From Teredinibacter franksiae (lineage in GTDB: Bacteria > Pseudomonadota > Gammaproteobacteria > Pseudomonadales > Cellvibrionaceae): a stretch of 64,000 nucleotides of DNA. Position 1 is the first letter of the stretch, and each line of letters opens with the position of its first letter. The notes beneath the pieces were generated by a model, which saw only the letters and a program-made list of their open reading frames with translations, had not been told where the DNA came from and ran no database searches. The stretch covers positions 2,926,501 through 2,990,500 of the forward strand of contig NZ_JACJUV010000001.1 in assembly GCF_014218805.1 (NCBI RefSeq), read 5' to 3'. This document shows, piece by piece, positions 38,126 through 62,641 of the stretch. Both the position numbers and the translations under genes were made by a program.

Positions 38126-38129
38126 CGCA

Positions 38130-42166: not shown

Positions 42167-42169
42167 ATT

Positions 42170-45141: not shown

Positions 45142-45215
45142 TTTGGCGCGCCTGTTTGTATTGGTTGTGCCGGGTGACACCGTTAACTAATTGATAAATA
45201 TAGAAATAATAAAGT

Positions 45216-45231: not shown

Positions 45232-45308
45232 AATCCAAAGGCAAGCTCGTTCGTAATGGGTAGCGAAAAGCTAACAAAACATACAAAAGTTAATTTTGGA
45301 GGAAACAC

Positions 45309-45998
45309 ATGAAAATATCTAAATCAATTCTTGCTGGTGCTGTAGCGGCTTCTGTCGCTTTAGTGGGTATGGCTCCTGTTGCTCAGGCTGAAGTGTCTGC
45401 TTCTGTTGGTGTGGCGAGTAGTTACTTGTGGCGCGGTATCGACCTAGGTGACGGTTACGGTACTCCGGCTGTTTTTGGTGACCTGGGCTTCAGCGAAGGC
45501 GGTTTCTACGCGGGTACTTGGGTCAGTTCTGGTGATGCAAATGGCGGAACCGAGTACGATTTGTATTTGGGTTATGGCGGTGAAGCGGGTGATTTCTCTT
45601 ACGATGTGAGCCTCTGGTCCTACCAGTACCCAACTGCTTCTACTCGTTATTTAGGTTTTAACAGCGAAGGTGAAATCGTCGTATCCCCATCTAATGACGA
45701 AAGTAACATCGGTGATTTGATGGAAGCCGTCGTATCTCTTGGTTACGGTCCTGTGAGCTTGAGCTACTACCACGGTATCCAGGATTTGGAAGATTACTAC
45801 TACGTTAATGCGGGCGTATCTTTCGGCGATTTCGGTGTTAATTTGGGTGCACATGAAGATGACATGATGCACATAGATTTCTCCTACGCCTACAACGACA
45901 ACTTGAGCTTCACTTTTAGCCAGGTTGTTGACAATGTTGACGGCGACTACGATGACGATTTGAATGTGGTTGTTTCCTACAGCATACCTATCGAATAA
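45309..45998 (+). CDS. TorF-family putative porin (TIGR02001 type)
   Basis: 229 residues with a signal peptide (LAGAVAASVALVGMAPVAQA) and an outer-membrane barrel of alternating strands; the start EVSASVGVASSYLWRGIDLGDG is the hallmark of the TIGR02001/TorF group. It ends in a beta-strand VVVSYSIPIE. GGAGG precedes the ATG. Genes of this family are often placed before glnK-amtB, and here the NtrC and sigma-54 sites in front of it suggest it is made under nitrogen limitation. An ammonium or urea channel is likely but not proven. Confidence 0.88.
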   Translation: MKISKSILAGAVAASVALVGMAPVAQAEVSASVGVASSYLWRGIDLGDGYGTPAVFGDLGFSEGGFYAGTWVSSGDANGGTEYDLYLGYGGEAGDFSYDVSLWSYQYPTASTRYLGFNSEGEIVVSPSNDESNIGDLMEAVVSLGYGPVSLSYYHGIQDLEDYYYVNAGVSFGDFGVNLGAHEDDMMHIDFSYAYNDNLSFTFSQVVDNVDGDYDDDLNVVVSYSIPIE

Positions 45999-46048
45999 GC
46001 ATTGCTTGAAAGTCGCTGGCTAGTTTTGTCGGCGGCTTTATTGACTGA

Positions 46049-46435
<387 letters not shown>

Positions 46436-46486
46436 ATCCTTACTTAGTTTATGAGTAAGTAGAATCCCAAATTCCGGAGAACTGCT

Positions 46487-47737
46487 ATGGAACAATCAAT
46501 TTTTGAATTGCAGTACGCTTTAGATACCTTTTATTTCTTGGTATGTGGCGCACTCGTAATGTGGATGGCCGCGGGCTTTTCAATGCTCGAGTCTGGTCTT
46601 GTCCGCTCTAAAAACACAACTGAAATTTTAACCAAGAACGTTTCCCTGTATGCGATTGCTTCCATCATGTATTTCGTGTGCGGCTACGCCATTATGTACG
46701 GCAAAACTTGGTTTTTAACGGGTATTGTTGGAGATGGTGTTGTTGGGGCTGAAGAGCCTGCGACCTATGCACCTTCTGCCGATTTCTTCTTTCAGGTCGT
46801 ATTCGTCGCTACGGCTATGTCTATTGTCTCGGGCGCTGTTGCTGAACGTATGAAGCTTTGGGCCTTCCTGCTGTTTGCTGTTGTGATGACGGGTTTTATC
46901 TACCCAATGGAAGGCGCATGGACCTGGGGTGAGCAAGAAGTATTTGGTCTCTTCCAGATCAAAGGAAAGGCTGAAGGTGTTAATTTTCAAGACTTTGCCG
47001 GGTCTGGCATCGTTCATATGGCTGGTGCTGGTGCTGCCTTGGCTGGCGTATTGTTGTTGGGCGCTCGTAAAGGTAAGTATGGCCCTAATGGTGAAGTAAA
47101 TGCGATTCCAGGTGCGAATTTACCTCTTGCTACTCTGGGTACATTTATCTTGTGGATGGGTTGGTTTGGATTTAACGGTGGCTCTCAGCTGGCGACTTCC
47201 AGTGTAGGCGATGCTAACGCAGTGGCTGTAATCTTTATGAACACAAATGCCGCTGCGGCCGGTGGCCTAGTTGCCGCTTTGATTGTTGCTCGTATTCTGT
47301 TCGGTAAAGCAGACCTTACAATGGCGTTGAATGGTGCTCTTGCCGGTTTAGTCGCTATTACAGCTGGCCCTGACACTCCTAGTCCTTTGGCGGCCACATT
47401 GATTGGCGCGGTTGGTGGTGTGTTGGTTGTGTTTAGCATTATCACCCTGGATAAGCTCAAGATTGATGATCCTGTAGGTGCGATTTCCGTTCACGGAGTT
47501 GTTGGCTTCTTTGGTGTGATGGTTGTACCTTTGACCAATACTGACGCTAGTTTCGGAATGCAGTTACTCGGTGCTCTCACTATCTTCGGATGGGTATTCA
47601 TCACCAGCTTTATTGTTTGGTATGTAATTAAGCTGATCATGGGCATTCGCGTCAGCGAAGAAGAAGAGTTCGACGGTGTGGATATTTCTGAATGTGGTAT
47701 GGAAGCTTACCCAGAGTTTGTTTCTGGCTCAAAGTAA
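46487..47737 (+). CDS. amtB: Ammonium transporter AmtB
   Basis: 416 residues with about eleven membrane helices. Conserved pieces include MWMAAGFSMLESGLVRSKN, the gate region MEGAWTWGEQEVF, the pore His in GSGIVHMAGAGAALAG and the second His in AISVHGVVGFFG. It lacks the cleaved signal of the E. coli protein. It follows glnK by 51 bases and is followed by a long palindromic terminator. It conducts ammonium and is regulated by GlnK. Confidence 0.97.
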   Translation: MEQSIFELQYALDTFYFLVCGALVMWMAAGFSMLESGLVRSKNTTEILTKNVSLYAIASIMYFVCGYAIMYGKTWFLTGIVGDGVVGAEEPATYAPSADFFFQVVFVATAMSIVSGAVAERMKLWAFLLFAVVMTGFIYPMEGAWTWGEQEVFGLFQIKGKAEGVNFQDFAGSGIVHMAGAGAALAGVLLLGARKGKYGPNGEVNAIPGANLPLATLGTFILWMGWFGFNGGSQLATSSVGDANAVAVIFMNTNAAAAGGLVAALIVARILFGKADLTMALNGALAGLVAITAGPDTPSPLAATLIGAVGGVLVVFSIITLDKLKIDDPVGAISVHGVVGFFGVMVVPLTNTDASFGMQLLGALTIFGWVFITSFIVWYVIKLIMGIRVSEEEEFDGVDISECGMEAYPEFVSGSK

Positions 47738-47798
47738 GTCGTTAATTGCGCTATCTACTGACTCCCTTGTTTAGGGGGAGGCAATGAGAAAAGGCATT

Positions 47799-47856
47799 TA
47801 ACCATCCATAAAAAACCCGGGTACTGAAAAGTACCCGGGTTTTTTATGGATGGTTA
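47799..47856 (+). terminator. Long perfect inverted repeat / terminator after amtB
   Basis: Arms 47799-47824 and 47831-47856 are perfectly complementary over 26 bases with a six-base loop TGAAAA. The core AACCCGGGTAC is followed by a T-run within the arm, so it is an intrinsic terminator extended well past its usual length. Confidence 0.9.
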
Positions 47857-48012
47857 GCCTGATTAACGATATCTGGGGAGTATCAATTAGGAAGGCACCC
47901 GTTCAACCCAATAATTTTTATTAGAGGTAGGCGGGAATTGTCAACAGCGTTGGGTGGAGTAATTTGTGGGCGTAGGGAAAGCCGCCAATCCAGGATAGAT
48001 TGGCGACGACCG

Positions 48013-50397
48013 TTACTGGTGGCTAGGCTTTCGTTGCGATAACCAAAATATGAAGGCAAAGGCTGTGGTGACAGCGGCTATAATTTGAAACAGCTGCATT
48101 TGCCCCTCGCCAGCATCAAAGAAAGCAAACGACCAGGCAAAAATGATGGGGCCCAGTACATGGCCAATACGCTCGACAAAGCGATAAAGAGAAAGGCTAC
48201 TGTTCACCCCTACACGGTTCGCAAACTGAGTATCGAGAACACTGGCAACAATGGGGGCGGCAATAAGGCCGTTGGAATAGCCTACAACAATTACCCCTAC
48301 AACAACGGCGGTATGCTGGTATATAGGTGAACCCAAAAGTGCGAAAGCGCCCAAGATAAAGCAACCTAGAGCGCTGCCCAGCATACCCATGAGTAAAATG
48401 GAATTGGTATTAAAGCGCTTGGCAACTTTGGGTACAAAATAATTAGAGAGCATAACGGAGAACGCAAACAGCATAAGTAATTGGCCGATCTGCGGTTTAC
48501 TGAATTCCAGTTGTGCAAGCAATATGGGTATGGTGAAAAAGATTGCCCCGTTATAGATAATTTTGCTGTAAGTACCGACAAACAGGCTGGAAACCAAAAA
48601 CTTTGCATCGCTTGTGGCATTGCTCAGTGTGGCCGCAAAAGAAACGGCAGGTTGCGGCGCTGTTTCAGTATTAGTGGTGGAGCTGCGTTTAGCCATAAAA
48701 AGATAAACGAGAAAAACATTCACTATGGCGACGGCGGTAGCAGACAGAAAAATGCCCTTGGCACCAACATAAATAAACATTAAAGCGCCCATGGCGGCGC
48801 CGGACAATATACCGCTGTTTTGGGCAAATACAATACGTGCCGAACCGCTAGCACGCTGTGAGCTCGCGACTGAATTGAGAATGTAAGATTGAATAGCGAT
48901 AAACAATAAGCCGTGACCCGCACCGGAAATAAAGCGTGCAGCAAAGGCAATTTCTAACTGTTCGTTGGTGGCCATCAGGGCTGCGCCTACCGCCGTCAAA
49001 ATACAGCCTACTAATACGGTGCTTTTAGCGCCGACGGCGCTGACAAGCTTGCCCGCGGGAATTAGCAATAACACAAAAGCTGCAAAAAAGAACGAGAACA
49101 ATAGCGAATAAAGATTGCTGTGGGTGGCAATAGAGCGTAGATAGTCAGGCATAAACGAAGCATTAAGGCCCTCCATAAATACCGCCAAAAACCACACGCA
49201 CTGTACCAGCGTAACACTGTGGCGAGAGGAGAGTGTTTGGTGATCTACGCTGTTGGCTTTCTGGCGTTCGGCGAAGCGCAGTTCTGATACGGAGGTGACC
49301 AGACGAAACCAGATATAGGCAATAAAACAACAGGAAACAAATAGTGCTGCAAAGTTAATGACATTATTAATGATTTTATCGCGTACCACACTCGCCTGTG
49401 GGTAGACTTTAATCGTTGCCGAACCGGAATCATTAATGGCCGCGCTAAGAAACTCGGCATCGGCTGGTACTCTGCTGTGTTTAGGATAGTGAATCAGTGT
49501 TTTATCGTCAAAACTGAGCTCGAAGCGCGCCATTTCCGACGCGTTGCTGTAAAAGTTTTCAACGATATTATTTACGCCGTCCAAATCTTCCTCTGACAAG
49601 CGGCCGATATTGGGAATAATGGAAAGTTGATGAGCAAGAGAGCGAGCGTATTGGTCTGCCTTGGCGTAAACACCATTTTTGTAAATCGATACGGATGATA
49701 GTGTGATAACGCCAGCCATAATGAAAAATGCAGCGGCGCTTAGACTTTGAAAATGCTTGGTTCCCTTTGCTGAGCGTTTTTGCAGCAGCAATAATGCCAT
49801 AGCCAATAGAAATGAAAGTGTTACGAACGTTATCAGCAGTATTTGCGGTAGATTTTCTAAGCCTTGGTCAATGACGTGGGGAGGAATGGCTTGGGCAATA
49901 CAGCCCACCGGCTTGCTGGCGCCATGACGAAGCAGTGGCGTAATAACCCACCAAACGGTATCGCTTTGATGGGGGCCGGTTAAATCACAAACATGGGGAA
50001 AATTTGGTCTTAATGGTGGGCTGGCCGATGGGTAAAGCCGCGTAACACTTTTTTTATCGTCGCCTTCCAGCGTAAAAACCATAAGATTTTCGTCTGCAAC
50101 AAAACCTGCAACGACGGCAATACTTTTATCTGAACCCTTGTCCAAAGTTTTACCTGACGTTGCACGACGGCTCGAGTGGGATTCTCGATCAAGATAATTG
50201 AGAATGTCTGCCACAAAGCTGACCTTCAGGCCGGCATCGAGAAAGTCGCCAATTAACCCCTGTAGCTGAACCGCTTTTGCTTGTTCTCGTTCCAGTAACA
50301 AGTTGGTGTAAACATGGCGGGCATCGCCAATACCCACAAATATGAGTACCAGCATCGCCAATAGCGGGATGGACAAAAACGAAAAATACTTAATCAT
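48013..50397 (-). CDS. MFS transporter with an N-terminal sensor-like extracytoplasmic region
   Basis: 794 residues, about twice an ordinary MFS protein. The first 395 residues contain a leading helix (SFLSIPLLAMLVLIFVGIG), a periplasmic segment, helices near 185 and 225, a second periplasmic segment and a helix near 355, an arrangement recalling Cache/CHASE sensor regions. From about 400 a 12-helix MFS follows (GLNASFMPDYLRSIATHSNLYSLLFSFFF, GKLVSAVGAKSTVLVGC, ARFISGAGHGLLFIAIQSY). It ends the seven-gene minus-strand operon, 30 bases after the binding-protein gene. A ligand-gated export or signalling role is inferred. Domain identity in the N-terminal half is not certain. Confidence 0.75.
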   Translation of the reverse strand: MIKYFSFLSIPLLAMLVLIFVGIGDARHVYTNLLLEREQAKAVQLQGLIGDFLDAGLKVSFVADILNYLDRESHSSRRATSGKTLDKGSDKSIAVVAGFVADENLMVFTLEGDDKKSVTRLYPSASPPLRPNFPHVCDLTGPHQSDTVWWVITPLLRHGASKPVGCIAQAIPPHVIDQGLENLPQILLITFVTLSFLLAMALLLLQKRSAKGTKHFQSLSAAAFFIMAGVITLSSVSIYKNGVYAKADQYARSLAHQLSIIPNIGRLSEEDLDGVNNIVENFYSNASEMARFELSFDDKTLIHYPKHSRVPADAEFLSAAINDSGSATIKVYPQASVVRDKIINNVINFAALFVSCCFIAYIWFRLVTSVSELRFAERQKANSVDHQTLSSRHSVTLVQCVWFLAVFMEGLNASFMPDYLRSIATHSNLYSLLFSFFFAAFVLLLIPAGKLVSAVGAKSTVLVGCILTAVGAALMATNEQLEIAFAARFISGAGHGLLFIAIQSYILNSVASSQRASGSARIVFAQNSGILSGAAMGALMFIYVGAKGIFLSATAVAIVNVFLVYLFMAKRSSTTNTETAPQPAVSFAATLSNATSDAKFLVSSLFVGTYSKIIYNGAIFFTIPILLAQLEFSKPQIGQLLMLFAFSVMLSNYFVPKVAKRFNTNSILLMGMLGSALGCFILGAFALLGSPIYQHTAVVVGVIVVGYSNGLIAAPIVASVLDTQFANRVGVNSSLSLYRFVERIGHVLGPIIFAWSFAFFDAGEGQMQLFQIIAAVTTAFAFIFWLSQRKPSHQ

Positions 50398-50426
50398 GAA
50401 ACGCTCTTAAGGCCTAGGGCTACAAA

Positions 50427-51488
50427 TTAATGGGCGTCGGCATGATGGAGCAGGCTGCCGTTGCTATCTGTGAGGGAAATATAGTATTGAATACTGCTGT
50501 CGATAAATTTGGCTGCACCGGCACCATCCAAATAGCTGTCGGGGGCCATTTTATTTGCCTTGTTGAAGGCTTGGTAGGTTTTGGATCGGTAGGCACAAGA
50601 CAGCACTTCGTGGAGGTAATCGTAGCGTGGTTGTTCGACACCAGAGTGCACGAAAAAACCACGGAAACGCTCGAGCGTTGGCATACCTTTTTCAATAAAT
50701 TCTTTTAGGCTAGGTGCGCCTTCTATGGTGTCATTTGGCTGAACAGGCAAAGAAATAATGGGTTTAAATAATTTTCGATCGATAAAAACACTCACATCGC
50801 CGGGCTGTTCAATAAGTAAGTCTGCTTTGTCTTGGATAATGGCCATATAGCGTTCAGACGGATTATTAATCGCTTGGTCCTCAATTCGCAGTCCGTATTG
50901 TGTGTTCAACTCATCAATATAGAGGTCTTCCATGGAGCCCTTGTGGCCAACCACGGCCACTTTAACTGGGTTATTGCTCGCATAGGTAACGAATTCGGGC
51001 CAGTTGGTAAACCGCTGTTCAACGTAGTTGCGAATAAAGAGTTGGCTATAGGTGCGCTGAACAATGGCGAGTGGTTTGAGGCGGCTTTTGTCTATGGTTT
51101 TGTGCCCCTCATGCATATGAATATAGGGGGCGACATCATCCACGTGTTGCAAAAGCGTGTAGCCATTTTCCGGAAGCAAATAAAATTGGCGAATAGCCTC
51201 TAAGCCGTTATCGCCGGTGATATGTTGCAAGGTAATGTTGGTACCTTCGGGCAGATAAGGCAACATGGCCTCGCGCATTTTGGCGCTTAACTGGTGTGAA
51301 CCCCCGCCTTCTCCGCGGGGAATAATAATGGTGATGGTTTTCTGGTGTTGATCCAAAAAACCTTCCGGTGATGTGGGTGTTTTTGTGCAGGCTGATGGAT
51401 CATTGGCCGCGTTAGTTAACAAGGCTAAAAACAGCAGTCCGATTCCGAGCAACGGGCGTGCGCAGGTGAAAAAAATGTGTGTATTCAT
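50427..51488 (-). CDS. Secreted Bug/TctC-like solute-binding protein
   Basis: 353 residues from ATG 51488; TTG 51506 is unlikely. A signal peptide (LLGIGLLFLALLTNA) precedes ITIIIPRGEGGGSHQLSAKMREAMLPYL and ITLQHITGDNGLEAIRQFY, which have the Bug/tripartite tricarboxylate receptor pattern (VPFGPGGGSD, then NRPGAGG) in diverged form. The middle has LPEGTNITLQ and VKVAVVGHKGSMEDLYIDEL. No TctA/TctB membrane genes are adjacent; instead it lies between the STAND and MFS genes. It may present a ligand to the neighbouring MFS sensor protein. Confidence 0.65.
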   Translation of the reverse strand: MNTHIFFTCARPLLGIGLLFLALLTNAANDPSACTKTPTSPEGFLDQHQKTITIIIPRGEGGGSHQLSAKMREAMLPYLPEGTNITLQHITGDNGLEAIRQFYLLPENGYTLLQHVDDVAPYIHMHEGHKTIDKSRLKPLAIVQRTYSQLFIRNYVEQRFTNWPEFVTYASNNPVKVAVVGHKGSMEDLYIDELNTQYGLRIEDQAINNPSERYMAIIQDKADLLIEQPGDVSVFIDRKLFKPIISLPVQPNDTIEGAPSLKEFIEKGMPTLERFRGFFVHSGVEQPRYDYLHEVLSCAYRSKTYQAFNKANKMAPDSYLDGAGAAKFIDSSIQYYISLTDSNGSLLHHADAH

Positions 51489-51562
51489 AACAATGTGTGT
51501 AGCCAAATATAGGGTGAACGATTAATTACGGGTTGCGTTAGAAAGACGCCGTATTGTTGCAA

Positions 51563-54500
51563 TTACAATTCAGGGAGGCAGTGTTCATGCGCCCCAAGAT
51601 TAAATAATGGTTTACAGGTTTTGGAGTTTCGCAATTGGGTCAGCCGTTTTACCGTATCGCCGTATATATGGGCGTCGTTTAATCTGTGCTCCATTTTGCG
51701 GCCATCGTTACTTTTTAATATTACGGTTTTTGGTGTGCGCATGTTGTCGAATGCAACGGCTTGAATAACAAAGTCGACATCAGTATTGATGACATACGTT
51801 GGGCGTGTTTCAAACCCATGGGCACCGTTGTGTCTAAATACTTCCAGACGGTGGTTGTTGGCCACGGAGGCCAGCCATTGGGTATGCTCGGGCGTTGGGT
51901 TGTCGTTAGCTTGGGTAATAGATAATCGGCTGTACCAAACAAGCGCGGCCTCTTCCTGGTCGGTAAATATTAGGTCCGATACGTCCCAGGCGACGATATA
52001 GTTATTGCGTGATACCAATACTGCTTCGCGCAGAGTGTTATCGTTGGTGGCAGACTGCGTAACAGATATATCGTTGATATAAACTCCAGTACTGTTACCC
52101 AAGGCATAGCGCGGTTGCAGCCCATCTTCGCTGAGCTTATACAATTTGACGATGCCATCGTGGGTGGCACACACCAAGCGGTTGGTCGCAACAATTTCCA
52201 AGTCTACGATTTCGGCGTTACTGCAGCGAGTTTCGTCGATGAATTCCAGTGAATTATTGTATAGATACCAGAGGCGAACATTGCCATCGCGATCGCCGCT
52301 GACTAATCCTGGTGTTGGGCCTTCATGGAAGTGCAGCGCCGATACATTTGCATCGTGATAGGCGAATTCATTCCTGGCTAAATGGCTATCGGTATCATAT
52401 AGATAGATGGCGCCGTCCCAGCCGCCGCTGGCCAACAGTTTACCGTTCGCGTTGTAGCGCAATGCGGAGATGGCCTCGGTATGTTTTTGGGTTAATACAA
52501 CAGGTGGTTTTTCTGTTTCTATCACGGTGACGAGCTGCACTTGGCCCTTGCTATCACCGGTAGCGAGCGTACTGCCATCGGGGCTGATGGTTAGCGCCGT
52601 AACCGGGCTGTCGCGCGCTATTTTACGTTGGCTGAACACGCACTGGCCAGGGTCGTATTGAATAAGCCGCAGTTGTGTATCGAGTGAAGCAATGGCGATG
52701 GTAACGATGTTGGTCGCTGGGTCGTGATGAATATCGGTTGCCGATAGCAACGATGGCGTTTCGCCCTTGGTAAATAGGCTATATGTTTGCTTTATTCCCA
52801 GATCGTAATCATAAGCGCTATCGCCCACCAAAATAGTGCCCAGCGAGGTAACCGAAATAAGTGTTTGCTCGTTAATTTTACGGGTGGCGAGAATTTTTGG
52901 AAGAGTAAAGTTTGTATTGTATCCACTAGAAGCCGTTGCAGGTGATGCGTTACAGGCGGTCGCTGCGTGAGCGTCTGGTTCGGCGGGTTTCGGGGTACGG
53001 CAGTTGCTGCAGGCTGTGGGTAAAGTGTTTAATGATTGCCAATCGATAAAATACACGGAACGTCGGTGCATAATCGAGTAGGCCTGATTGAGTGCTTGCT
53101 TGGCTTCGTAGGTGTCGGATTTCTGCAGCGCAAGAATCGCTGTATAGGCCGCTTGCTCGGGTGATGTAAGCAGTGCGTTTTTGGCGTCGATGGCAAGTTT
53201 AAGCGATTCGGATTTTTGCTGCAGCTTATAGGTGTGTTGCGAGAATAAACCGAGGATAGCAATACCGATAATACAAAACATCAGTAGCCCATTTTTTAGG
53301 TAGCGAATTTTTTTTGCGGTCGCGATTTCTTTTTGATGCTGAACTTCCTGTTGCTGCTTATCGGCAATATGCTGCTTTACGCTCTGGGCGATATAGTTCT
53401 TTACCTGCTGGAAATTGTCGTCATAGCGCGCCGCCCAGGCAGGGTTGGGTTTGGTTTTTTGCTGCCAGTTCACAGCGATATCCAGCTCTGGATTACGCAT
53501 TAAACTCGCTTCCTGCTTGTTATAGCGGCAAGCCAGTTCAGACAAGCGCCAGTACTGCTCAGCCGATTGCGATTCTTCTTTTATCCAGATCATTACCTGT
53601 TGCCACAGGCGGAAAAGGCTTTCGTGAGACACATCGATAATACTGTCTTCGGTAATCGTTTCTGCCGCATTGGGGGTAAGGAAGCTGCAGTGCGGGTTGC
53701 GAAAAATAGTTAGAATGGCTGCCAACCTATCGAAGTCGGTTTCGCAAATGGCCATCAGTTCGCTGACCGCGGCCGGGCGTCGCACTACACGGCTGTCCTG
53801 AGTTAGCTCGCTGAGGCATTTAAATATTTTTTCGACGAGCTGTTTCTGTGGTTCGTTTAGTGGGTTGAAGATGCTTTCGGCATGCACATTAAGGGCATTG
53901 CTTAATGTGCCAATGGCTTGGTAGTGCGAGAGGTCAATGGGTTGACTGTTTTCACCTTGTTGGTGCCAGCAAAACCACATACGCATAAGGGCATGTTGAA
54001 AAATGGGTAATTGATCCGGTTCATCGCCAAGGTCGTTGAGCAGGCGATTGACCAACCGAGCGCTAATATCCACACCTTGTTTTTGTAACGGGCCGAGAAT
54101 AATGTCTCGCCGTTGTTGGCGATTCATTCGCGGTATTAGGTATTGGCTGCGGTTAATGGCCTCGGGTAGTCCTTCGTATTTGGTACAGTCGCCGAGAAAA
54201 TCCGAGCGCATGGTTATCACAATATAAACCGGGACTTCAGTTTGTTTTACCGCTTCTAGCAACAGTTTTATAAATGCCAATGCATAGTTGCGTTTACTGT
54301 TATTGCTGGTAATGCGAAACAGTTCTTCGAACTGGTCCACCAAAATTAGAAGGGGGTGTTCACTGTTTAATTGTTTAACTAGCTCTACCAGCCCAAACGA
54401 ACTGCGTGAAAGTAGAGCCTCGGCCATGAGCGTATATTCACTGGAAGCCTTTGCCAAAACGTCTGGATCGGCTTCTGGGTGCTTACGGTGTTCGAGATTT

Positions 54501-54823
54501 TGGTGAACGGCAAATAGTGCTTGAGCTAGACGTGCCAGCGGAGCGCCACCGGGGGTCATTTCGGTGGTTTCCCAGTGGCTACGCAACGAATGATCGCCTA
54601 CTAAAGAAGCATTGAGTTTGGGTAACAGCCCTGCGCGAATGAGTGAAGATTTACCACTACCGGAAGCGCCGAGTACGGTTATCAATCGGTTGCGCTTTAT
54701 TTTTCGGGCCAGTTCGGTTACTTGTTCATCGCGGCCGTAAAAATTTCCAGACTCGTGTGGCGAGTAGCTGCGTAAACCAGGGAATGGGTTGGTTAGTGTT
54801 TTGGCCGAAGGGCGTTTAGCCAT
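51563..54823 (-). CDS. STAND NTPase (nSTAND1-like) with transmembrane helix and WD40 repeats
   Basis: 1086 residues. The N-terminus NPFPGLRSYSPHESGNFYGRDEQV is the nSTAND1 signature; Walker A is GASGSGKSS (52-60) and Walker B LLILVDQFEELF (158-169). A winged-helix sensor DVSHESLFRLW lies near 400, one membrane helix at about 511-530, then WD40-type repeats from about 700 (TLATGDSKGQVQLV, LLASGGWDGAIYLYD, LVSGDRDGNVRLW). STAND ATPases are signal switches that oligomerise when their repeats bind a ligand. The start lies one base after the TIR gene stop, and its GGAGG ribosome site is inside that gene's last codons, so the two are tightly coupled. Confidence 0.88.
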   Translation of the reverse strand: MAKRPSAKTLTNPFPGLRSYSPHESGNFYGRDEQVTELARKIKRNRLITVLGASGSGKSSLIRAGLLPKLNASLVGDHSLRSHWETTEMTPGGAPLARLAQALFAVHQNLEHRKHPEADPDVLAKASSEYTLMAEALLSRSSFGLVELVKQLNSEHPLLILVDQFEELFRITSNNSKRNYALAFIKLLLEAVKQTEVPVYIVITMRSDFLGDCTKYEGLPEAINRSQYLIPRMNRQQRRDIILGPLQKQGVDISARLVNRLLNDLGDEPDQLPIFQHALMRMWFCWHQQGENSQPIDLSHYQAIGTLSNALNVHAESIFNPLNEPQKQLVEKIFKCLSELTQDSRVVRRPAAVSELMAICETDFDRLAAILTIFRNPHCSFLTPNAAETITEDSIIDVSHESLFRLWQQVMIWIKEESQSAEQYWRLSELACRYNKQEASLMRNPELDIAVNWQQKTKPNPAWAARYDDNFQQVKNYIAQSVKQHIADKQQQEVQHQKEIATAKKIRYLKNGLLMFCIIGIAILGLFSQHTYKLQQKSESLKLAIDAKNALLTSPEQAAYTAILALQKSDTYEAKQALNQAYSIMHRRSVYFIDWQSLNTLPTACSNCRTPKPAEPDAHAATACNASPATASSGYNTNFTLPKILATRKINEQTLISVTSLGTILVGDSAYDYDLGIKQTYSLFTKGETPSLLSATDIHHDPATNIVTIAIASLDTQLRLIQYDPGQCVFSQRKIARDSPVTALTISPDGSTLATGDSKGQVQLVTVIETEKPPVVLTQKHTEAISALRYNANGKLLASGGWDGAIYLYDTDSHLARNEFAYHDANVSALHFHEGPTPGLVSGDRDGNVRLWYLYNNSLEFIDETRCSNAEIVDLEIVATNRLVCATHDGIVKLYKLSEDGLQPRYALGNSTGVYINDISVTQSATNDNTLREAVLVSRNNYIVAWDVSDLIFTDQEEAALVWYSRLSITQANDNPTPEHTQWLASVANNHRLEVFRHNGAHGFETRPTYVINTDVDFVIQAVAFDNMRTPKTVILKSNDGRKMEHRLNDAHIYGDTVKRLTQLRNSKTCKPLFNLGAHEHCLPEL

Positions 54824-54824
54824 G

Positions 54825-56318
54825 TTAGTGGCCTCCCGTTACGCTAAGGGGTTGCAGGAATTCGTCAAAGTCGCCATTGCTTTCGGGTAGATGGCGAATG
54901 GTGGCGAATTTGCGCGCACGGAATCGCAGCTTGTCAACGGTTTCATCACCGGTAAGGTATACCCCGCGTAATTGGAAAGGTTGTTGGCGTTCTTTTTCTA
55001 TCTGGGTAATATCGCGCACCTTATCGCTCAGCCACTCTGCACGGCTATTGGCTTGTACAATTATGACTGATTGCGCGGATTTTAAATTATTCATGTAATC
55101 GTCGTGTATCAGTTGTTCTGAGCCGGTAAAGAGCGGGTGTATTATATTGTGGCCGCTATCTAACAGTGCTTCTTCTAGTGCCTCGGTGTAGTCGTAGTCC
55201 GTTTCTTCGTACAGTAGATAGATATTATCTTCAGCGCTGGCAGAAGTCGCCACCGGGCTATGGGCCGTTGTAGGCTTTTTATTGACTGCATTACTAATAC
55301 AGTTTTTTAGCTCTTCGATATCAGTTTCTAAAAATTCAGTTTTATCGAGTTCGTATTCTTCATTGCGCAGGTTGTCAATAAATTCGATTTGACATTCTTC
55401 GGTTACAGACTGAGCTTTTGGTAGCCATATAATACGGTGTATGCCTTTGGCTTTTGCATGCTCTGCTGTAAGTTCGGTTTGCCAGTGGATATCCGATTTT
55501 TCTGTGCCTTCGTGGATGGAGCCATAATGCCCACCAATCATGTTGACAATGAGTTCGCACTCGGAGAGTTCGGCCTTTGTTTCGGCAATAAAGTCTCCTA
55601 GTTTTCGCGCCGGTGCACTTTGCGGTACAACATCGTAACCGCGTTCATTAAATTCCCGTTTTATACTTTGGTATTCCTCATCGATGTCCAGTGTGGGTTG
55701 TGGAATGTACACTTTTTTATTCGCACTATTGGCGGGTTCAGTGCGGGACTGTTTATACAATTTGTATGTTTGTGCAATGTCGTAGGCTAGGTCTTCGAGT
55801 TTGGCCCAGTAGCGAGGATCTTTGTTTGCACCTGGGTCCTGGCGGAATTCATCGGGTCGGTTGTTGGCTGGGTTTACATCGTAAAAACAATAGCCCAGTT
55901 GAGTTTGCAGTACATCGGGTTGCTCTTCTAGTTCCAGAGGCGTTTTTATCACTTTAAATATGCGCGACTTCTCACCCATTTGCAGCCCACCCTGAGCTTC
56001 GACGTCGTGGGTAAATTGCTCAAATTCTTTGATGCACCAGTCGGAATTAACATAGCGTGGCGAAACCACGCAAACGAGCAGGGGTACATTTTTTAAACCT
56101 TTGAGAATGGAATCGCTGAAATTGTCGTTACCGGTCAGCTTTTCATCGCGCCAGATAGACACCTGGCCGCCAATAATTTGCTGCAGGCGTACTCCCAAAG
56201 AATAATGCAGACGTGAAATCCAGCCGGGCTCATTCATATCTAACGGTACGTTATCGATATGCGTGTAGCTGATAAACAGGTCGTTATCATTGACGTCTTG
56301 TGTTGCCGAATCACCCAT
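54825..56318 (-). CDS. Multi-TIR-domain protein
   Basis: 497 residues. Residues 12-170 form a TIR domain: DLFISYTHID, WRDEK, VCVVSPRYVNSDWCIKEFEQ, with Glu98 in the S-x-W-C-x-x-E position of NADase-type TIRs. Residues about 207-340 are a second TIR/DUF4062-like unit (VYIPQPTLDIDEEYQSIKRE, LIVNMIGGHYGSI). Residues about 365-490 look like a third (NIYLLYEETDYDYTEALEEALLDSG, SVIIVQANSRAEWLSDKV). TIR proteins either break down NAD+ or make signal nucleotides. Coupling to the STAND gene suggests a sensor-effector pair. The second and third units may be scaffolds, as I see no clear catalytic Glu in them. Confidence 0.85.
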   Translation of the reverse strand: MGDSATQDVNDNDLFISYTHIDNVPLDMNEPGWISRLHYSLGVRLQQIIGGQVSIWRDEKLTGNDNFSDSILKGLKNVPLLVCVVSPRYVNSDWCIKEFEQFTHDVEAQGGLQMGEKSRIFKVIKTPLELEEQPDVLQTQLGYCFYDVNPANNRPDEFRQDPGANKDPRYWAKLEDLAYDIAQTYKLYKQSRTEPANSANKKVYIPQPTLDIDEEYQSIKREFNERGYDVVPQSAPARKLGDFIAETKAELSECELIVNMIGGHYGSIHEGTEKSDIHWQTELTAEHAKAKGIHRIIWLPKAQSVTEECQIEFIDNLRNEEYELDKTEFLETDIEELKNCISNAVNKKPTTAHSPVATSASAEDNIYLLYEETDYDYTEALEEALLDSGHNIIHPLFTGSEQLIHDDYMNNLKSAQSVIIVQANSRAEWLSDKVRDITQIEKERQQPFQLRGVYLTGDETVDKLRFRARKFATIRHLPESNGDFDEFLQPLSVTGGH

Positions 56319-56353
56319 GGTGCATTGCTCTCTACTGTGTTTCCTGCTGGTTT

Positions 56354-57295
56354 TTATGTGCGACTAATAATGCCGGTCAGGCACGCTAACCCGCCGCCGG
56401 CATTCAGGTATTCACTTACATCCACTTGGTGGGTGGTGACATCGTGCCGGTGCAATGCCCGTTGAATATTGGGGCAATTGGCGGGCATCAGTATTTCCCT
56501 TGGTTTGAGGGTAACAAAATTCATTCCTCGCTTTTCGCGAAGCTCTTGTTCGTTCTCCAATGCAATGATGTCGATGCTACGGCTTTTTAACAAGCTAATT
56601 AATTCTGGTGGTGCGCGGTTGCTATCCACGGCGACCAAATTGTGGTCAATAAAATTCATTATTCCCAGAAGATGTTGCTGATTGCCGGGCATGGAAGTGG
56701 TGAGCACATCAATGCCCATGGTTGCCAGTAACGGAGTAATGTGGCTAACGGCTTCGTTGTTGGTACGCAGATCTGTACCGATTAATACCGTTTTATGATC
56801 AAGCCAGAGCGCATCGGCACCTTCAAAGGAGCAGTTACCCCGCAATGTGGTGAGGATGGGTACACCCATGGCGGCGAGCGTACGTGCGGCGTAGCGTTCT
56901 TCGCCTGCGCGCTGCTGCGCAGCGGGGCGTGCGAGTATGGCGCCTTCAGGGGTCATGAAGTAGAGGTCGCGCATAAATATAAAGTTGGGTAGTGGTGCGT
57001 CGCACCGGGATATTGTCACTTCAACCCCCTGTGCTTCGTAGGCGGCTTTAATTGCCAGAGTTTGCTCACGTATACGTTGGAGGTTTACGGGGCGTAACAA
57101 TAAAGCTTCGTTGGGGTTGCTAATGTGGCCGAGAATATCACCGGGCCAGCCGAGGGTAACGCTCGTTAATGCGGCGCATTCACTGTTTACGCCACATTTG
57201 CGCCACAGTGCATTATTGAGTTCCTGTTCGTGACGCTGGCTACGGACTTTAAAAGCCGGGCCGCCCCAGGTACCGGGAAGTGGTGTATCGCTCAT
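56354..57295 (-). CDS. Arginine deiminase / dimethylargininase (DDAH)-fold amidinotransferase-family enzyme
   Basis: 313 residues. Family motifs are FIFMRDLYFMTPEGAILARP (the RD substrate pocket), NCSFEGADALWLD, a central GIMNFIDHNLVAV and the C-terminal nucleophile Cys305 in GGGLACLTG. This fold covers arginine deiminase, DDAH and amidinotransferases, all acting on guanidino groups through a covalent Cys intermediate. The length and single-domain form are nearer DDAH than ArcA. It has no arginine-catabolism neighbours; it sits 35 bases before the TIR gene and 11 after a sulfotransferase gene. The substrate in this setting is unknown. Confidence 0.8.
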   Translation of the reverse strand: MSDTPLPGTWGGPAFKVRSQRHEQELNNALWRKCGVNSECAALTSVTLGWPGDILGHISNPNEALLLRPVNLQRIREQTLAIKAAYEAQGVEVTISRCDAPLPNFIFMRDLYFMTPEGAILARPAAQQRAGEERYAARTLAAMGVPILTTLRGNCSFEGADALWLDHKTVLIGTDLRTNNEAVSHITPLLATMGIDVLTTSMPGNQQHLLGIMNFIDHNLVAVDSNRAPPELISLLKSRSIDIIALENEQELREKRGMNFVTLKPREILMPANCPNIQRALHRHDVTTHQVDVSEYLNAGGGLACLTGIISRT

Positions 57296-57306
57296 TGTGA
57301 CCTGCT

Positions 57307-58704
57307 TTAGTAGCCTAGCTGCTGAGCCAGGTGTTTTATTGATTCGCTTTCAATCAAGGGTTGAATAATGGATGCCCGTTTTTTCCATCGATCGGGGTTA
57401 GGCGCGCTAGTGGTCATGATTGGCGGCGGGTGAATGTGTGTCAGTGCTTGGGTGCCGGGCTTGCTGATATTTAACCACGTGCACACGCTATGCAGTGCGG
57501 CTTCGCGCCGCTGCTCACCGCCGATGAGATCTTCATAGCGTACGCGCAATGTCGGTAGCGGCTGTTGGGCGAGAAAATCCTGGATATGTTGATGGGTGCT
57601 TGTCCATTGAAAAGCACACACTTCTTCCAGTTTTGCGTGGGTGTATTGTTCCCAGCTAGGGGGTAAATCGAAATTCCACCAGCGCTTCCCCCACCGTGGA
57701 AATTGATCACTGTAGCCTTTTATCTGTAGCTCAACGGGCATTGCCTGTACAAAAAAACCGTGGTGTAGCCAGCCGTCGTAAAGGCCGTTAATAGCCGCTG
57801 CGGGGTTACGGGTAAGGTGAATAACTCGGCACCGGGCCTGGGGAAAAACAGTTTTAAGAAACGCTAACTGGTAGGCATGACCAGGGGCTTTGAGCACGAG
57901 GGTACTGGGTGGCTTATCGCCGTGGGTGCCTGTGGAGTTTGTGTCTACCTCCCAAGGAGAAATGGCTAAAAAAGGCGGCTCTTCAATCAATAGATCGGTT
58001 GGTGGACCTTGTGGAGTAGGGATTTCTGGGTAATGGCTGTGAATGAGCTGTGCAGGAATATCGTAGTAGTAGGGGTTAACGTTGGGGTGTTGAACACGTA
58101 CGCGGTTTAAAAAATGTACGTGAAACAATTTGCTGTGCAGCAGCGCAATAATGCTTTGTTCAGTTTTGTTACTGAACTGGTTAAACGTATTTTGCATGCA
58201 CTTGCGCACTTGATCTGGGTCGAAGCCTTCGGCCGGCCACTGAATACTCAGTCGAAGATAAAGATCGCGTGCAAAACGGGTCATATCGATTGCTGGCGTT
58301 GCCACTAACGGGTCGGTAATTTTATGTGGATCACAACCTGCACCCATTTCGCGCAACAGCAATTGCTGTAATAGCGGGATATCAAATCCGGCATTGGTGA
58401 ATAGCGCATCGGAGCCGGTATTGTTTTCGGGGTACATTAAGCCGGCCATTCGCATCATTGGGATGGCCTCACCGCGCAGGTGCAGTATTTCTGAACAGTG
58501 GCGCAGTATTTCCATAAAAAAACTAGAGCCACCGCGTGAACTGGTCGCAACCAGAACAATATCGGTTATTTGGTTAATGTTCGGTAGCTTGTTTTGATCC
58601 TGTAGGTGTGTGTTTTCGCTTAGTAGTAAGTTTCTCGCTGCGGATAGGGCTATCCTGCGGCGACTGGATGTGCTGGTGGAATATGACTGGCTCTGTTTTA
58701 ACAC
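57307..58704 (-). CDS. Sulfotransferase-like protein, long form
   Basis: 465 residues. A PAPS-loop-like VATSSRGGSSFFMEIL is near residue 55 and a 3'-phosphate-binding-like IHLTRNPAAAINGLYDGW lies further on, then LRVRYEDLIGGEQRREAAL as in other sulfotransferases. It is longer than the usual 300-350 residues owing to a central insertion with NPYYYDIP and PPFLAISPWEVD. It is the second gene of the TIR/STAND operon, 22 bases after a first sulfotransferase gene. Sulfation of a shared target or of a small molecule is inferred. Confidence 0.75.
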   Translation of the reverse strand: MLKQSQSYSTSTSSRRRIALSAARNLLLSENTHLQDQNKLPNINQITDIVLVATSSRGGSSFFMEILRHCSEILHLRGEAIPMMRMAGLMYPENNTGSDALFTNAGFDIPLLQQLLLREMGAGCDPHKITDPLVATPAIDMTRFARDLYLRLSIQWPAEGFDPDQVRKCMQNTFNQFSNKTEQSIIALLHSKLFHVHFLNRVRVQHPNVNPYYYDIPAQLIHSHYPEIPTPQGPPTDLLIEEPPFLAISPWEVDTNSTGTHGDKPPSTLVLKAPGHAYQLAFLKTVFPQARCRVIHLTRNPAAAINGLYDGWLHHGFFVQAMPVELQIKGYSDQFPRWGKRWWNFDLPPSWEQYTHAKLEEVCAFQWTSTHQHIQDFLAQQPLPTLRVRYEDLIGGEQRREAALHSVCTWLNISKPGTQALTHIHPPPIMTTSAPNPDRWKKRASIIQPLIESESIKHLAQQLGY

Positions 58705-58726
58705 ACGAATGTCCCTGTGCTTATTA

Positions 58727-59782
58727 TTATTTTGAGAGGTGTTTGTGCGTTGTTGGGGGCGATCGTCTAACCCAAGATAATTTGGTTAAATACAGTCGCC
58801 GTGCAATTCGTCGTCCAAAATTCTTATCGTTTAGAAGCGATTTAATTTGCACTTGGATATTCAATAGGGTGTCTTGCACGCCAAATAGTGCACGACTTAC
58901 CGGGCCAATGGTATGGCTTTGCCAATCAGTATTGTCCGGCGTGTAACCGAGGTTAACCATCGTCTTGCCGGCGGCTCTTTCCACTGTTTTTATCTGTATG
59001 CTCGACAAACGCTTTTTATACTTACCGGCATTATTGGACATAATCGGTTTGGCGGTGTTTTTCCAAGATTCGGAAAGGGTACCGCTGAGCTTCGCTTCTG
59101 GCGTTTCGGCAAACGCCAGCATGGTGCTCTCAAAGGATTCGTCTATAAAAGCGCATATTTTTTTGACCGTGACTTCTGGTTGCGCAATTAAATATTCATA
59201 GTGCAATTGCAGTACGTTCTCAGCGTATGGGCCATTGGCTAGTGCCAGACCTTTTTGCTGCTGTTCGTGCCACAATCGCGCTGTGTGATAGGGGTGGAAG
59301 GGGTTGAATACCGAATGCATCGAGGATACGGCAACATCGCGGGGGTCGCGCACCAACCATAATAATTTCGCGTGGGGGAACAGGCGAAAAATGGCATCGG
59401 CGTGCTCAACCATAAACGTACTTTTACAGGCCCAGCGCTTTTTATTACTGGCTTTAAGGTAGGCGTTATACACGGTGACGAAGACACCAAAAAGGTCACG
59501 TGAGGGTGCCTGGCTAATCAGTTGGTCGATATCCAGTTTTACATCCCAAGGGTAGATATGAATATCAATAAGTCCTAAGACATCGGCGACCAGCCGATAA
59601 AAATTATCCTGCTCATTGAGGTCGCCGTAGCGGCCTTCGAGGCTGCCCATAAAATGCATAATATGCGGTGGGTGTGGAACGGTGATGTGGGAGTGTGTGT
59701 TCAGTATTAACCGCAACAGGTTGGAGCCGGAACGCTCAGTGCCCACAATAAAAATAGGGTGACTATTGTCTAATTCATCCAT
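58727..59782 (-). CDS. Sulfotransferase family protein (PAPS-dependent)
   Basis: 351 residues with the PAPS loop FIVGTERSGSNLLRLIL at the N-terminus, the 3'-phosphate motif LLWLVRDPRDVAVSSMHS and a later YEYLIAQPEVTVKKICAF helix. The basic C-terminus (GRRIARRLYLTKLSWVRR) may contact membrane or nucleic acid. It is the first gene of the seven-gene operon. The intergenic region in front shows no promoter I can assign with confidence. Confidence 0.85.
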   Translation of the reverse strand: MDELDNSHPIFIVGTERSGSNLLRLILNTHSHITVPHPPHIMHFMGSLEGRYGDLNEQDNFYRLVADVLGLIDIHIYPWDVKLDIDQLISQAPSRDLFGVFVTVYNAYLKASNKKRWACKSTFMVEHADAIFRLFPHAKLLWLVRDPRDVAVSSMHSVFNPFHPYHTARLWHEQQQKGLALANGPYAENVLQLHYEYLIAQPEVTVKKICAFIDESFESTMLAFAETPEAKLSGTLSESWKNTAKPIMSNNAGKYKKRLSSIQIKTVERAAGKTMVNLGYTPDNTDWQSHTIGPVSRALFGVQDTLLNIQVQIKSLLNDKNFGRRIARRLYLTKLSWVRRSPPTTHKHLSK

Positions 59783-60098
59783 GCGTTTTACCCGACAAAA
59801 TTGATTTGTGCGCCTGAGTGTAACTATATGCGACAGACTATTTATTATTATGCGCTTACATCAGCCCCCCGCTAAACGAGCTGCCCACCAACATAATGTA
59901 ATCGAGTGCGATGCGTCAATTCCACGATTGTCTTTGAGTAATATTGTGGCGAGGCCATAGCATTCAAAATGTGTTCAACTAACCTAGGTCAGCATGCTAT
60001 CAGGTTAAAAATAGGGTTAATAATAGGGCATACTTTTCCATCTTCTTGGAGATTACCGTTTGCCATTAAAGGCACCTGCAGAGCTGCGTAAAAGGTAG

Positions 60099-60115
60099 TG
60101 CACTACAAAGGTGCC
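60099..60115 (+). promoter_or_regulatory. NtrC-like box, distant from the second PII gene
   Basis: TGCACTACAAAGGTGCC has GCAC-N7-GTGC. It is about 750 bases before the PII gene and 320 bases from the start of the TIR/STAND operon; no sigma-54 promoter is seen between, so its target is open. Confidence 0.45.
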
Positions 60116-60156
60116 GTTAGCGGAGTGCGTTATTTAGCTGGAAATAGCTATTGGTT

Positions 60157-60230
60157 AAAAAGAAGCCCTTAGCTAAAAAGAAGCCCTTAGCGGGTGAAAG
60201 GCCCTTAGCGGGAAAGCAGCCATAAGCGGG
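60157..60230. repeat. Degenerate 18-bp tandem repeat
   Basis: Two perfect copies of AAAAAGAAGCCCTTAGC at 60157-60173 and 60175-60191, then two decayed ones around GGCCCTTAGC and GCAGCCATAAGC. Confidence 0.75.
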
Positions 60231-60856
60231 AAAAAAGAACCTTCGGCTTAAAAACATTCCATTGCATGGATAATCGCCCCCTCAAAAAAGTGTTAGAGCG
60301 AGATGTTTACACGATTGCCGATCGAAGCATATCGCTCGGTGGGGAGCAACGTATGAAAGTACTGGTGCCAGAGGAAAGGTTTGAATCTTCACGCAGTTCC
60401 CATTCAGTCGCTCCCGAGAGCGTGGAAGCCTAGTATTTTCGGGGCGCTTCGGTAGCGCTGGAAGATAGATACCCGCGTTCGCGGCCATGACCCAACTTGA
60501 GTTTGAATTGCGCTCGGCCAATGCAAACACCAACGGTGTAATGGGGTACAGGTTAGTCACTAGAATTATCTTGGGCTCCCGCGTGTGCTAAAGGGTTTCC
60601 GAGGGTTGTATGGTGTGGGGACAAAGGGGATAAGTACCGTAAGCTGGCTAAAATGTGTTTCTGGGCAGTTTAATAGGCTATGTAGCAGCTAAGCCACATG
60701 TTTGACGTACTTAGAAGTACAGGGTTGTCTGTTAGGCGCTCCCCTTGCGGGCGGGGAATCTTCGGTGTAAATTGCCGTATTAAACCCCTTAAAAGGGGGA
60801 ATACCCTCAGTTTGGGCCCTCAACTACAATAAAACCGAGTATTTAGGTGCATTTAA

Positions 60857-61204
<348 letters not shown>

Positions 61205-61577
61205 GCCACGCCGGTATTTTTTTGCGCCACATTTTTAGCCTGTGGCGCTATCCTTGCCTTTCCTAAATCTCCCTCTATAGCTCGCCGTTGTTGATTATCA
61301 GGTTAATTTTTCGGTTGCAATATTTTTTAACAAATAACCGTTTTCTGATTTTTCCCTTAACACTAGAACAAAAAAAACTAACCAAATTCGGCCTATTCAA
61401 TGACAGCGCCAAATCTGTGAGCTATATAAATTAGCGATGATTAATGCACGGGTTAAGTGCTGGCAGTTCACAGGTGTTCAGAATACGAGCTTAGTCGTGA
61501 TGAGTAGCGACTGTTTTGAATGGCTTTTTGTGTGTTGCTGAGGCTGTTAGCTAAGATTTTTAATGAGGGTGTTAACT
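61205..61577. other. Intergenic region between the second PII gene and the SutA-like gene
   Basis: About 370 bases. It holds a perfect eight-base palindrome GCGCCACA / TGTGGCGC (61224-61248) that has a T-run before it, not after, so it is not a standard plus-strand terminator. GAGGGTG at the right edge is the ribosome site of the next gene. Confidence 0.6.
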
Positions 61578-61793
61578 ATGGGTGATGCAGATACAATTGA
61601 CGACGCAGCTGATGCAGTAGCGCTAACGCTAACGGGCGAAGCACTTTCGTCTAAAGAAGCCGAGCGGACTAAGATGCAAGCAGAAATAGAAGCTTTTTTG
61701 GCCAGTGGCGGCACAATTAGTCGAGTGGCCAACAATGTTGTGGCCGATCCGCCGAAAAAACCCGAATCGAACTACGGTGGACAGCCGATTTAA
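61578..61793 (+). CDS. sutA: SutA-like RNA polymerase-associated regulator
   Basis: 71 residues from ATG 61578, which has GAGGGTG six bases before it; ATG 61563 would put that site inside the gene. An acidic N-terminus precedes a Glu/Lys-rich helix (EAERTKMQAEIEAFLASGG) and the near-invariant tail NVVADPPKKPESNYGGQPI. Pseudomonas aeruginosa SutA has the same layout, and its tail is VVADPPKKPDSKYG-like. SutA binds RNA polymerase and raises expression of many genes in slow growth. The acidic arm here is shorter. Confidence 0.8.
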   Translation: MGDADTIDDAADAVALTLTGEALSSKEAERTKMQAEIEAFLASGGTISRVANNVVADPPKKPESNYGGQPI

Positions 61794-61951
61794 CAAAAAC
61801 CTCGATAGTGGTTTTGGCTGGAGCCTTGCCATTTGAGGCGCTGCTTGAATTCAGCATGTTTGTGTTCGACGCATTTGTTGGTACGTCCGTAAAGGGGATT
61901 TGGTACCTACAATAATAAAGCGCTAGATCCTAGACGCCGCGCGTCTGTTTG

Positions 61952-62641
61952 TTATCCCAAATACTTCGGCAGTAAACGATTCATTACCTCGGCGATATAG
62001 CCGAGGAAGAGTGTACCCATACTGGAGCGGTAGTAGGTTGGGTCTTGGTTGCCGATGGCCAGTAGCCCGAGTGGACTACCGTGTTGCAAAACGGCTAGGG
62101 CGGCGCTGCCGACATTGGCTGAATCATCGTCAAATAAAAATTCCGTTTCTTTAATGTCGATGCCGCCACTGACGGTGTTGGGTAGTTTCAAACGCTTGCC
62201 AATATAGTCTCGAGCGTCGTGCACGGACACTATGCGAGCGGCGCTTGCCGGTGTACTGCTGTTGCCAAACAGTATTAGGCGCGTGTAGTGGATATTAAAT
62301 TCTTTGTCGAAGCTGTAATAAAGCGCATCTACAAGGTCGCCTAGATCGTTACACTCGAGCATGGCCAGTACTAGGCGTTTGGTTTTGTCGAACAGCCTGT
62401 CGTTTTCACGGGCGTTATCTAGCAGGCTGCTGAGACGGTGGCGCATGTCCATGTTGCGTTCGCGCAAAATAGCGACCTGTCGCTCAACTAATGAAGTTGC
62501 GCCACCGCTTTGGTGGGGTAACTGCAAGTCTGCCAGCAGCTCCGGACGTTCGCTAAAAAATTCGGAGTTGGATTTCAAGTAGAACTCTACCTGATCGGCG
62601 CTGATTTTTTCACGTTTTTGGGTAATGGGCGATTCGCTCAT
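61952..62641 (-). CDS. DUF484 family protein (GAF-like)
   Basis: 229 residues from ATG 62641, which overlaps the dapF stop (ATGA); an upstream in-frame start would lie inside dapF. Family features are [44 protein letters not shown] and a GAF-like C-terminus ending [20 protein letters not shown]484 lies after dapF and before xerC in many gammaproteobacteria. Its function is unknown. Confidence 0.93.

Follow-up and report, generated by a model that had tools for sequence, protein, structure and literature searches.

The DNA analysed here (the window) is a stretch of 64,000 nucleotides from Teredinibacter franksiae (RefSeq assembly GCF_014218805.1, contig NZ_JACJUV010000001.1, positions 2,926,501 to 2,990,500 of the forward strand), and the system in question is a block of seven minus-strand genes at 48013-59782, lying between the genes amtB and glnK. 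With a probability of about 0.5, the block was read as an acquired island that consists of three modules. The first would be a TIR-STAND sentinel that spans the membrane and works autonomously, the second a pair for sensing in the periplasm, and the third a trio of two sulfotransferases and an ADI-fold enzyme. A working link between the three modules is possible. All parts of the block are of a known kind and the whole is a variant of the TIR/STAND systems; what is new here is the conserved helix between the NTPase and the propeller in the STAND protein of this pair. The seven genes, in the order of transcription, are as follows.

58727..59782, minus strand: ST1, sulfotransferase (Sulfotransfer_3, E 2.7e-32; best solved match the CurM sulfotransferase, E 1.6e-8)
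57307..58704, minus strand: ST2, divergent sulfotransferase (Sulfotransfer_3, E 3.3e-9; haloarchaeal relatives at about 28% identity)
56354..57295, minus strand: guanidino enzyme of the ADI/DDAH fold, distinct clade (Pfam ADI, E 5.7e-13; invariant D110, E158, H208 and C305)
54825..56318, minus strand: TIR, DUF4062 and a third alpha/beta domain, probable NADase (Pfam TIR_2 and DUF4062; structure model; invariant E98)
51563..54823, minus strand: nSTAND1 NTPase, membrane helix (amino acids (aa) 509-527) and WD40 propeller (Pfam; hydropathy; flank charge)
50427..51488, minus strand: secreted binding protein of the Bug/TctC type (hydrophobic N-terminal segment at aa 11-29, counted from TTG 51506; modelled fold)
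48013..50397, minus strand: sensor-MFS, two predicted extracytoplasmic stretches followed by a major facilitator (MFS) carrier part (MFS_1 at 403-750; hydrophobic segments; relatives)

Insertion of the block between amtB and glnK

The distance between amtB and glnK is 298-442 bases in six genomes of the same genus (G001, G003, G004, G005, G006 and G007; G002 was left out of the comparison) and 13.1 kb in the window, and the block was therefore regarded as an acquired island (G and L numbers are our handles for genomes and loci). Likeness to the regions upstream of glnK in the relatives starts at about 60762, and the interval holds no open reading frame (ORF) of at least 150 aa other than the seven. 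The sequence comparison thus indicates that the seven genes reached a single site, or were put together there, all in the same orientation. The features that mark the site are listed below.

46487-47737, plus strand: amtB (Pfam)
47799..47856, no strand: perfect inverted repeat of 27 bp with A/T runs, lying between the amtB and MFS gene ends and resembling a terminator in form
47857..60755, no strand: acquired island, both edges approximate (short amtB-glnK gap in relatives)
60866-61204, plus strand: second glnK-type gene (PII-like sequence and place in relatives)

All seven ORFs were listed on the minus strand, with gaps in transcription order of 22, 11, 35, 1, 74 and 29 bases. For the 74-base gap the start of the Bug gene was taken as ATG 51488, as implied by a 353-aa database copy (P0121), and not as TTG 51506. 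The initial annotation had described seven genes on one strand with small gaps, which was borne out (1-74 bases), and its gene calls and domain roles were right according to Pfam and, for the Bug fold, to a structure model. This operon look is not unusual by itself, since a run of 13 co-directional genes, some with wider gaps, also lies at 32655-44891 of the same window. The filling of one otherwise short intergenic space by the block is more telling. A pattern scan, which gave overall no more sites than shuffled sequence, showed no minus-strand terminator-like site within the six gaps, and the inverted repeat at 47799..47856 was not among the sites it listed. RNA families were searched for within 44000-64000 and none was found.

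A plasmid home for the block was considered and rejected, as the matches of ST2, TIR and ADI were all below 60% identity. A short array of an 18-base repeat around GCCCTTAGC (60147-60235) lies upstream of the gene that opens the block, close to where the island ends on the right.

The TIR-STAND pair

The conservation of the set was examined at TIR loci retrieved with a profile from a TIR alignment of 22 rows. From 181 named loci the best 80 were taken, many of them on short contigs, with neighbourhoods of up to 10 kb on each side and often less where the contig ends. STAND was located directly downstream of TIR in 76 of the 80 loci by tblastn, which found TIR in all 80; the ORF script did not recover a usable TIR in 4 loci and STAND in 7. 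None of the ADI, ST1, ST2, Bug and MFS proteins was matched in any of the 80 loci within the sequence examined, including all 76 with TIR and STAND. Among 57 relatives TIR was found in one only (G004, of the same genus), where a bare TIR-STAND pair with the two genes overlapping by a few bases stands at another place, and Bug was matched in none. In the loci and relatives examined, TIR-STAND orthologues were thus consistently found without the other five genes, which is the outcome that the initial annotation had named as refuting its reading, and its description of the block as one seven-gene system is not supported. Similarly, a conserved seven-gene cluster was rejected, since searches in the relatives and at TIR, ADI, ST2 and MFS loci showed no second case. 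Judged by gene neighbourhoods, TIR-STAND is a widespread self-contained pair, independent of the other five genes.

In G004 the gene upstream of the pair encodes a solute-binding protein (SBP)-transglycosylase. Copies with 64-67% identity occur in T. franksiae itself (G000) and in G006 and G007, and none of these copies has a TIR pair near it. A recurring SBP beside TIR-STAND in the genus was thus rejected, as this is an ordinary gene that occurs apart from TIR pairs. The STAND protein of the bare pair (L103, 10451-13231) appeared by eye to have a hydrophobic, perhaps polytopic, C-terminal part where others have WD40.

The TIR protein contains one TIR_2 domain (E 3.2e-10) and one DUF4062 domain (PF13271, 27.7 bits, cut-off 24.7). 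Its structure model (predicted local distance difference test score (pLDDT) 81.8, predicted TM-score (pTM) 0.42) comprises three alpha/beta domains, delimited from secondary structure at about 13-192, 202-346 and 365-492. Given the pTM of 0.42, the domains were trusted and the packing between them was not. The protein had been called multi-TIR, which holds for the TIR and the TIR-like DUF4062 domain; the third alpha/beta domain is seen in the model alone. Matches of the whole model to the Protein Data Bank (PDB) were weak; SARM1, MyD88, SPARTA and plant TIRs reached E 1e-3 to 2e-2 and ranked after non-TIR matches of low TM-score. E98 in the first TIR domain is invariant in all 22 rows of the alignment (A1), which was hand-picked from a longer list, and we take this residue to be the catalytic glutamate of TIR. 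The column of E282 in DUF4062, a possible counterpart of E97 of the Klebsiella protein, has E in 11 of the 22 rows when read by eye. The FxsC model of the FxSxx-COOH system (NF040588) scored 37.2 bits, below its cut-off of 130. In one report, proteins with DUF4062 are described as NADases that serve in defence against phages (PMC13174449). This family membership and the invariant glutamate suggest that the TIR protein is probably an NADase.

In the STAND protein, nSTAND1 spans 13-438 (E 4.4e-92) and is followed by WD40. The Walker A residues G52, G55, G57, K58 and S59 are invariant in the 26 rows of an alignment (A6) hand-picked from a longer list, in which nSTAND1 is present in all 26 proteins and WD40 in 21. 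Between the NTPase and the propeller, hydropathy gave a single hydrophobic segment (509-527). A segment of 19 residues with a mean hydropathy of 1.9-3.1 occurs at the same place in 62 of 73 script-recovered homologues, and 9 of the 11 homologues without it end at a contig edge before its place. Lysine and arginine are richer on the NTPase-side flank in 54 of the 62 scored proteins, that of the window included (mean 5.9 vs 2.8). The NTPase part is highly conserved among the homologues and the part after the helix is not. If the NTPase is taken as cytosolic, one membrane helix would place the WD40 propeller in the periplasm. These sequence features suggest that the TIR-STAND pair is probably membrane-anchored with its WD40 part in the periplasm.

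The mechanism proposed for the pair starts from a cytosolic STAND NTPase, anchored by the one helix, with its propeller on the periplasmic side. NTP-driven assembly of the STAND NTPase would follow a signal that reaches the propeller or arises in the envelope; the assembled STAND would then activate the partner TIR protein, which in turn would cleave NAD+ or make an NAD-derived signal. A rival explanation is an ordinary cytosolic antiphage TIR-STAND system of the Avs or Swarozyc type, in which the helix is structural and the other genes are passengers. The phage-defence NADases of the DUF4062 family and the patchy distribution of the pair in the relatives would fit this explanation, but the helix kept at one place, with its charge bias, and the TonB receptors adjoining many Bacteroidota pairs (see below) do not. 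PADLOC also gave no match for any of the seven proteins, and in Avs-type antiviral STAND proteins the effector, STAND and sensor are joined in one protein, whereas the effector is a separate gene here. This explanation was considered unlikely.

The partners of TIR-STAND at other loci were scanned for 42 of 46 upstream neighbours (all but the short or truncated L036, L038, L073 and L088) and for 38 of 38 downstream ones. Upstream of TIR (n=42, E up to 0.01), TrkA_N was found 25 times, a weak RyR match 17 times, DUF4231 4 times and SLATT_1 3 times; downstream of STAND, the Plug domain of TonB receptors was found in 20 of the 38 genes. The TrkA_N/TonB-receptor loci are mostly Bacteroidota-like by gene length and record titles, with L016 and L034 alone scanned singly with Pfam. 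They share ancestry and are to be counted as one operon type and not as independent events. In these two loci (L016, 8247-21252; L034, 8032-19719) the order is TrkA_N (with a weak RyR match in L016), TIR, STAND and TonB receptor, and the group continues with a methyltransferase and/or a multi-transmembrane protein of 840-970 aa. A similar group, by gene length and spacing, was seen in L035, L040, L053, L060, L085 and L092. The Bacteroidota group looks like a surface-receptor-linked TIR system. We tentatively suggest that the TIR-STAND pairs of this clade could be membrane-spanning immune-type switches, built from a propeller or repeat sensor in the periplasm, one membrane helix, a STAND NTPase in the cytosol and a TIR NADase as partner. 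Such switches would recruit lineage-specific surface receptors and thereby link sensing beyond the inner membrane with loss of NAD+ in the cell. The recruited receptors might be the TonB receptor and the TrkA_N/RyR protein in Bacteroidota, and perhaps Bug with the Cache-like MFS in the present block.

The proposed sensing pair and the putative tailoring enzymes

The sixth protein had no Pfam match. Its AlphaFold model (pLDDT 81) matched TctC, TBP, MatC, TphC, Bug27 and BugD chains at ranks 1-17 in the PDB, together with 5oei and 2dvz, periplasmic proteins whose family name is missing from the listing. By its model, the protein has the Bug/TctC fold. Besides the protein itself, six homologues were found among 5.8 billion proteins, and its profile matched in 58 of 397 other genomes, mostly generic Bug proteins, which says nothing on orthology. 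The last protein (794 aa) has MFS_1 at 403-750. Four hydrophobic segments precede the MFS part (5-23, 186-204, 220-238 and 346-364), predicting two extracytoplasmic stretches, and seven lie within it. Together, Bug and the sensor-MFS would form a signalling input pair, in which a periplasmic ligand binder works with a protein that joins a sensor head to an MFS carrier.

Relatives of the sensor-MFS were found in G089 and G288, among 273 other genomes of the class, and in G655, G699, G472 and G427, among 397 others of the phylum. A binding-protein gene adjoins the sensor-MFS in all six: it is a Pfam ABC_sub_bind gene in four (L100, L101, L167 and L164), a homologue 49% identical to the ABC_sub_bind protein of L164 in the fifth (L165 of G472), and in the sixth (L166 of G427) a gene of 413 aa which, as judged by eye, has the same position and starts in a similar way. 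A nucleotide-signalling enzyme is present in four of the six, namely a Cache guanylate/adenylate cyclase in L101 (G089) and GGDEF with EAL in L164-L166 (G699, G472 and G427). Since G699, G472 and G427 are of one family, L164-L166 were counted as one operon type. The remaining two hits of these searches, in G136 and G513, are histidine kinases of the Cache type, and they too adjoin ABC_sub_bind genes. From these neighbourhoods, a secreted binding protein with this sensor head appears to be a recurrent signalling input used with several outputs. As side observations, the order in L164 (7459-15088), L165 (3292-10863) and L166 (5235-12125) is an ATP-grasp gene (D-Ala-D-Ala ligase-like), sensor-MFS, ABC_sub_bind-type gene and GGDEF/EAL gene, and in L167 (5480-9757) the sensor-MFS and ABC_sub_bind genes are accompanied by a second SBP-like gene in a cluster that by eye resembles type VI secretion.

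These facts bear on a second rival explanation, an outside-in alarm in which Bug would bind a ligand from outside, the signal would pass through the sensor-MFS and the periplasmic WD40 part, and TIR-STAND would be the output. TIR-STAND would then stand where cyclases or GGDEF-EAL proteins adjoin other sensor-MFS genes. The recurrence of binding protein and sensor-MFS is the best argument for it, by analogy, and the histidine kinases beside ABC_sub_bind and the TonB receptors downstream of STAND also fit. However, three of the four loci with a signalling enzyme amount to a single operon type, Bug and ABC_sub_bind are unrelated in sequence, and T. franksiae has no ABC_sub_bind protein at all. 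Furthermore, no second genome with TIR-STAND beside Bug or a sensor-MFS was found among the loci and genomes searched, and in G004 and many phyla the pair occurs without either of them. An outside-in alarm had been offered in the initial annotation; it gains indirect support from the recurrent input and from the helix, which would place WD40 outside. We consider this explanation possible but doubtful.

In the ADI-fold enzyme, D110, E158, H208 and C305, presumably the catalytic Cys, His and acidic residues, are invariant in all 17 homologues of an alignment (A2) hand-picked from a longer list. The best solved match is DDAH, and the best score against the DDAH and arginine deiminase equivalogs was 77.4 bits, below the cut-off of 340. 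A search of 368 other genomes of the class gave strong relatives of this clade (E below 1e-100) in 3, and next to these no match to a sulfotransferase, TIR, STAND, Bug or MFS was seen. More distant ADI-fold proteins, at 23-29% identity, were found in 8 of the 57 relatives. Matches of ST2 were confined to residues 266-465 and came from 14 of 273 other genomes of the class; its relatives in the two haloarchaeal plasmid loci read (L139 and L140) lie beside cysC and a YqcI/YcgG gene. ST1, ST2 and the ADI-fold enzyme look like tailoring enzymes. They lie in one island and may or may not act together.

It could also be supposed that the whole block is a biosynthesis operon, in which the ADI-fold enzyme and the two sulfotransferases make a modified guanidino compound. 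This would be exported by the MFS and sensed or taken up again by Bug, with TIR-STAND as a guard against its misuse. The gene content favors this explanation, and the APS kinase genes beside the ST2 relatives fit the use of 3'-phosphoadenosine 5'-phosphosulfate (PAPS). But the island lacks an enzyme that would make a scaffold, the three strong ADI relatives are without a sulfotransferase match nearby, and the MFS is part of a sensor family and not a plain exporter. The earlier proposal that the operon makes and exports a modified molecule found no support beyond gene content (0 of 3 strong ADI relatives with block partners beside them), and this explanation was judged very improbable. Elsewhere in the window, a third sulfotransferase (7041-8060, minus strand), 25% identical to ST1 over 151 columns, adjoins an acyltransferase, and a 2392-aa hybrid nonribosomal peptide synthetase-polyketide synthase with AMP-binding, ketosynthase, acyltransferase and condensation domains is encoded at 22571-29749 (minus strand), directly followed by a hydrolase-like gene.

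Several points weigh against the reading as an acquired island of three modules. The membrane helix of STAND is a hydropathy call and not a measured topology, the charge bias is slight in the window's own protein (4 vs 3 K/R), and two complete homologues (L068 and L076) have no helix at this place. The base composition of the block equals that of the window and gives no sign of foreign origin. In addition, seven genes at one site, with such short gaps and one shared terminator-like repeat, may be one working unit.

Comparison with known systems

Among the systems most alike are the Swarozyc/DUF4062 NADases and TEP1, as far as the available part of the report describes them (PMC13174449). DUF4062 is shared, and TEP1 joins a TIR-like domain, a NACHT NTPase and WD40, comparable to TIR-like, STAND and WD40 here. 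The present system differs in having two genes, a Pfam TIR with an invariant Glu before DUF4062, a third alpha/beta domain, nSTAND1 instead of NACHT, and a membrane helix between the NTPase and WD40. The nSTAND1 clade and TIR effectors are also shared with the NTP-dependent conflict systems, in the portions of the two reports at hand (PMC8195603, PMC7159879). One of these portions mentions a membrane-associated two-gene system, some members of which have an extracellular periplasmic-binding-protein domain (PMC7159879). This is apparently another family. In the present block the binding protein has a gene of its own, and what is conserved is TIR together with a helix-anchored nSTAND1. Another report, also available in part, predicts for one NACHT-STAND target a periplasmic NACHT and lectin part (PMC10907252); the NTPase clade and the sensor are different there, and there is no TIR pair. 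In the accessible text of these two reports, predicted periplasmic STAND parts are passing mentions (PMC10907252, PMC7159879).

The binding protein shares the Bug/TctC receptor fold and a hydrophobic N-terminus with the tripartite tricarboxylate transporters. However, TctA and TctB are not among the seven genes, the partner here is a sensor-MFS, and the 57 relatives gave no Bug match. The groups of ABC_sub_bind, sensor-MFS and cyclase or GGDEF/EAL (L101 and L164-L166) share the secreted binding protein beside a sensor-MFS; the binding protein here is of another family, and TIR-STAND takes the place of the second-messenger enzyme. Titles and abstracts listed by literature searches (most subscription papers were outside reach) gave no description of the TIR/nSTAND1 pair or its membrane helix, of STAND with TonB receptors, of the setting of the pair beside Bug and MFS, or of sensor-MFS signalling.

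To our knowledge, the bacterial STAND sensors with a tested function are cytosolic phage detectors. The conserved membrane helix between the NTPase and the propeller, together with the TonB-receptor operons, would imply that bacteria possess switches which are driven by surface receptors and deplete NAD, with a layout comparable to that of cell-surface immune receptors.

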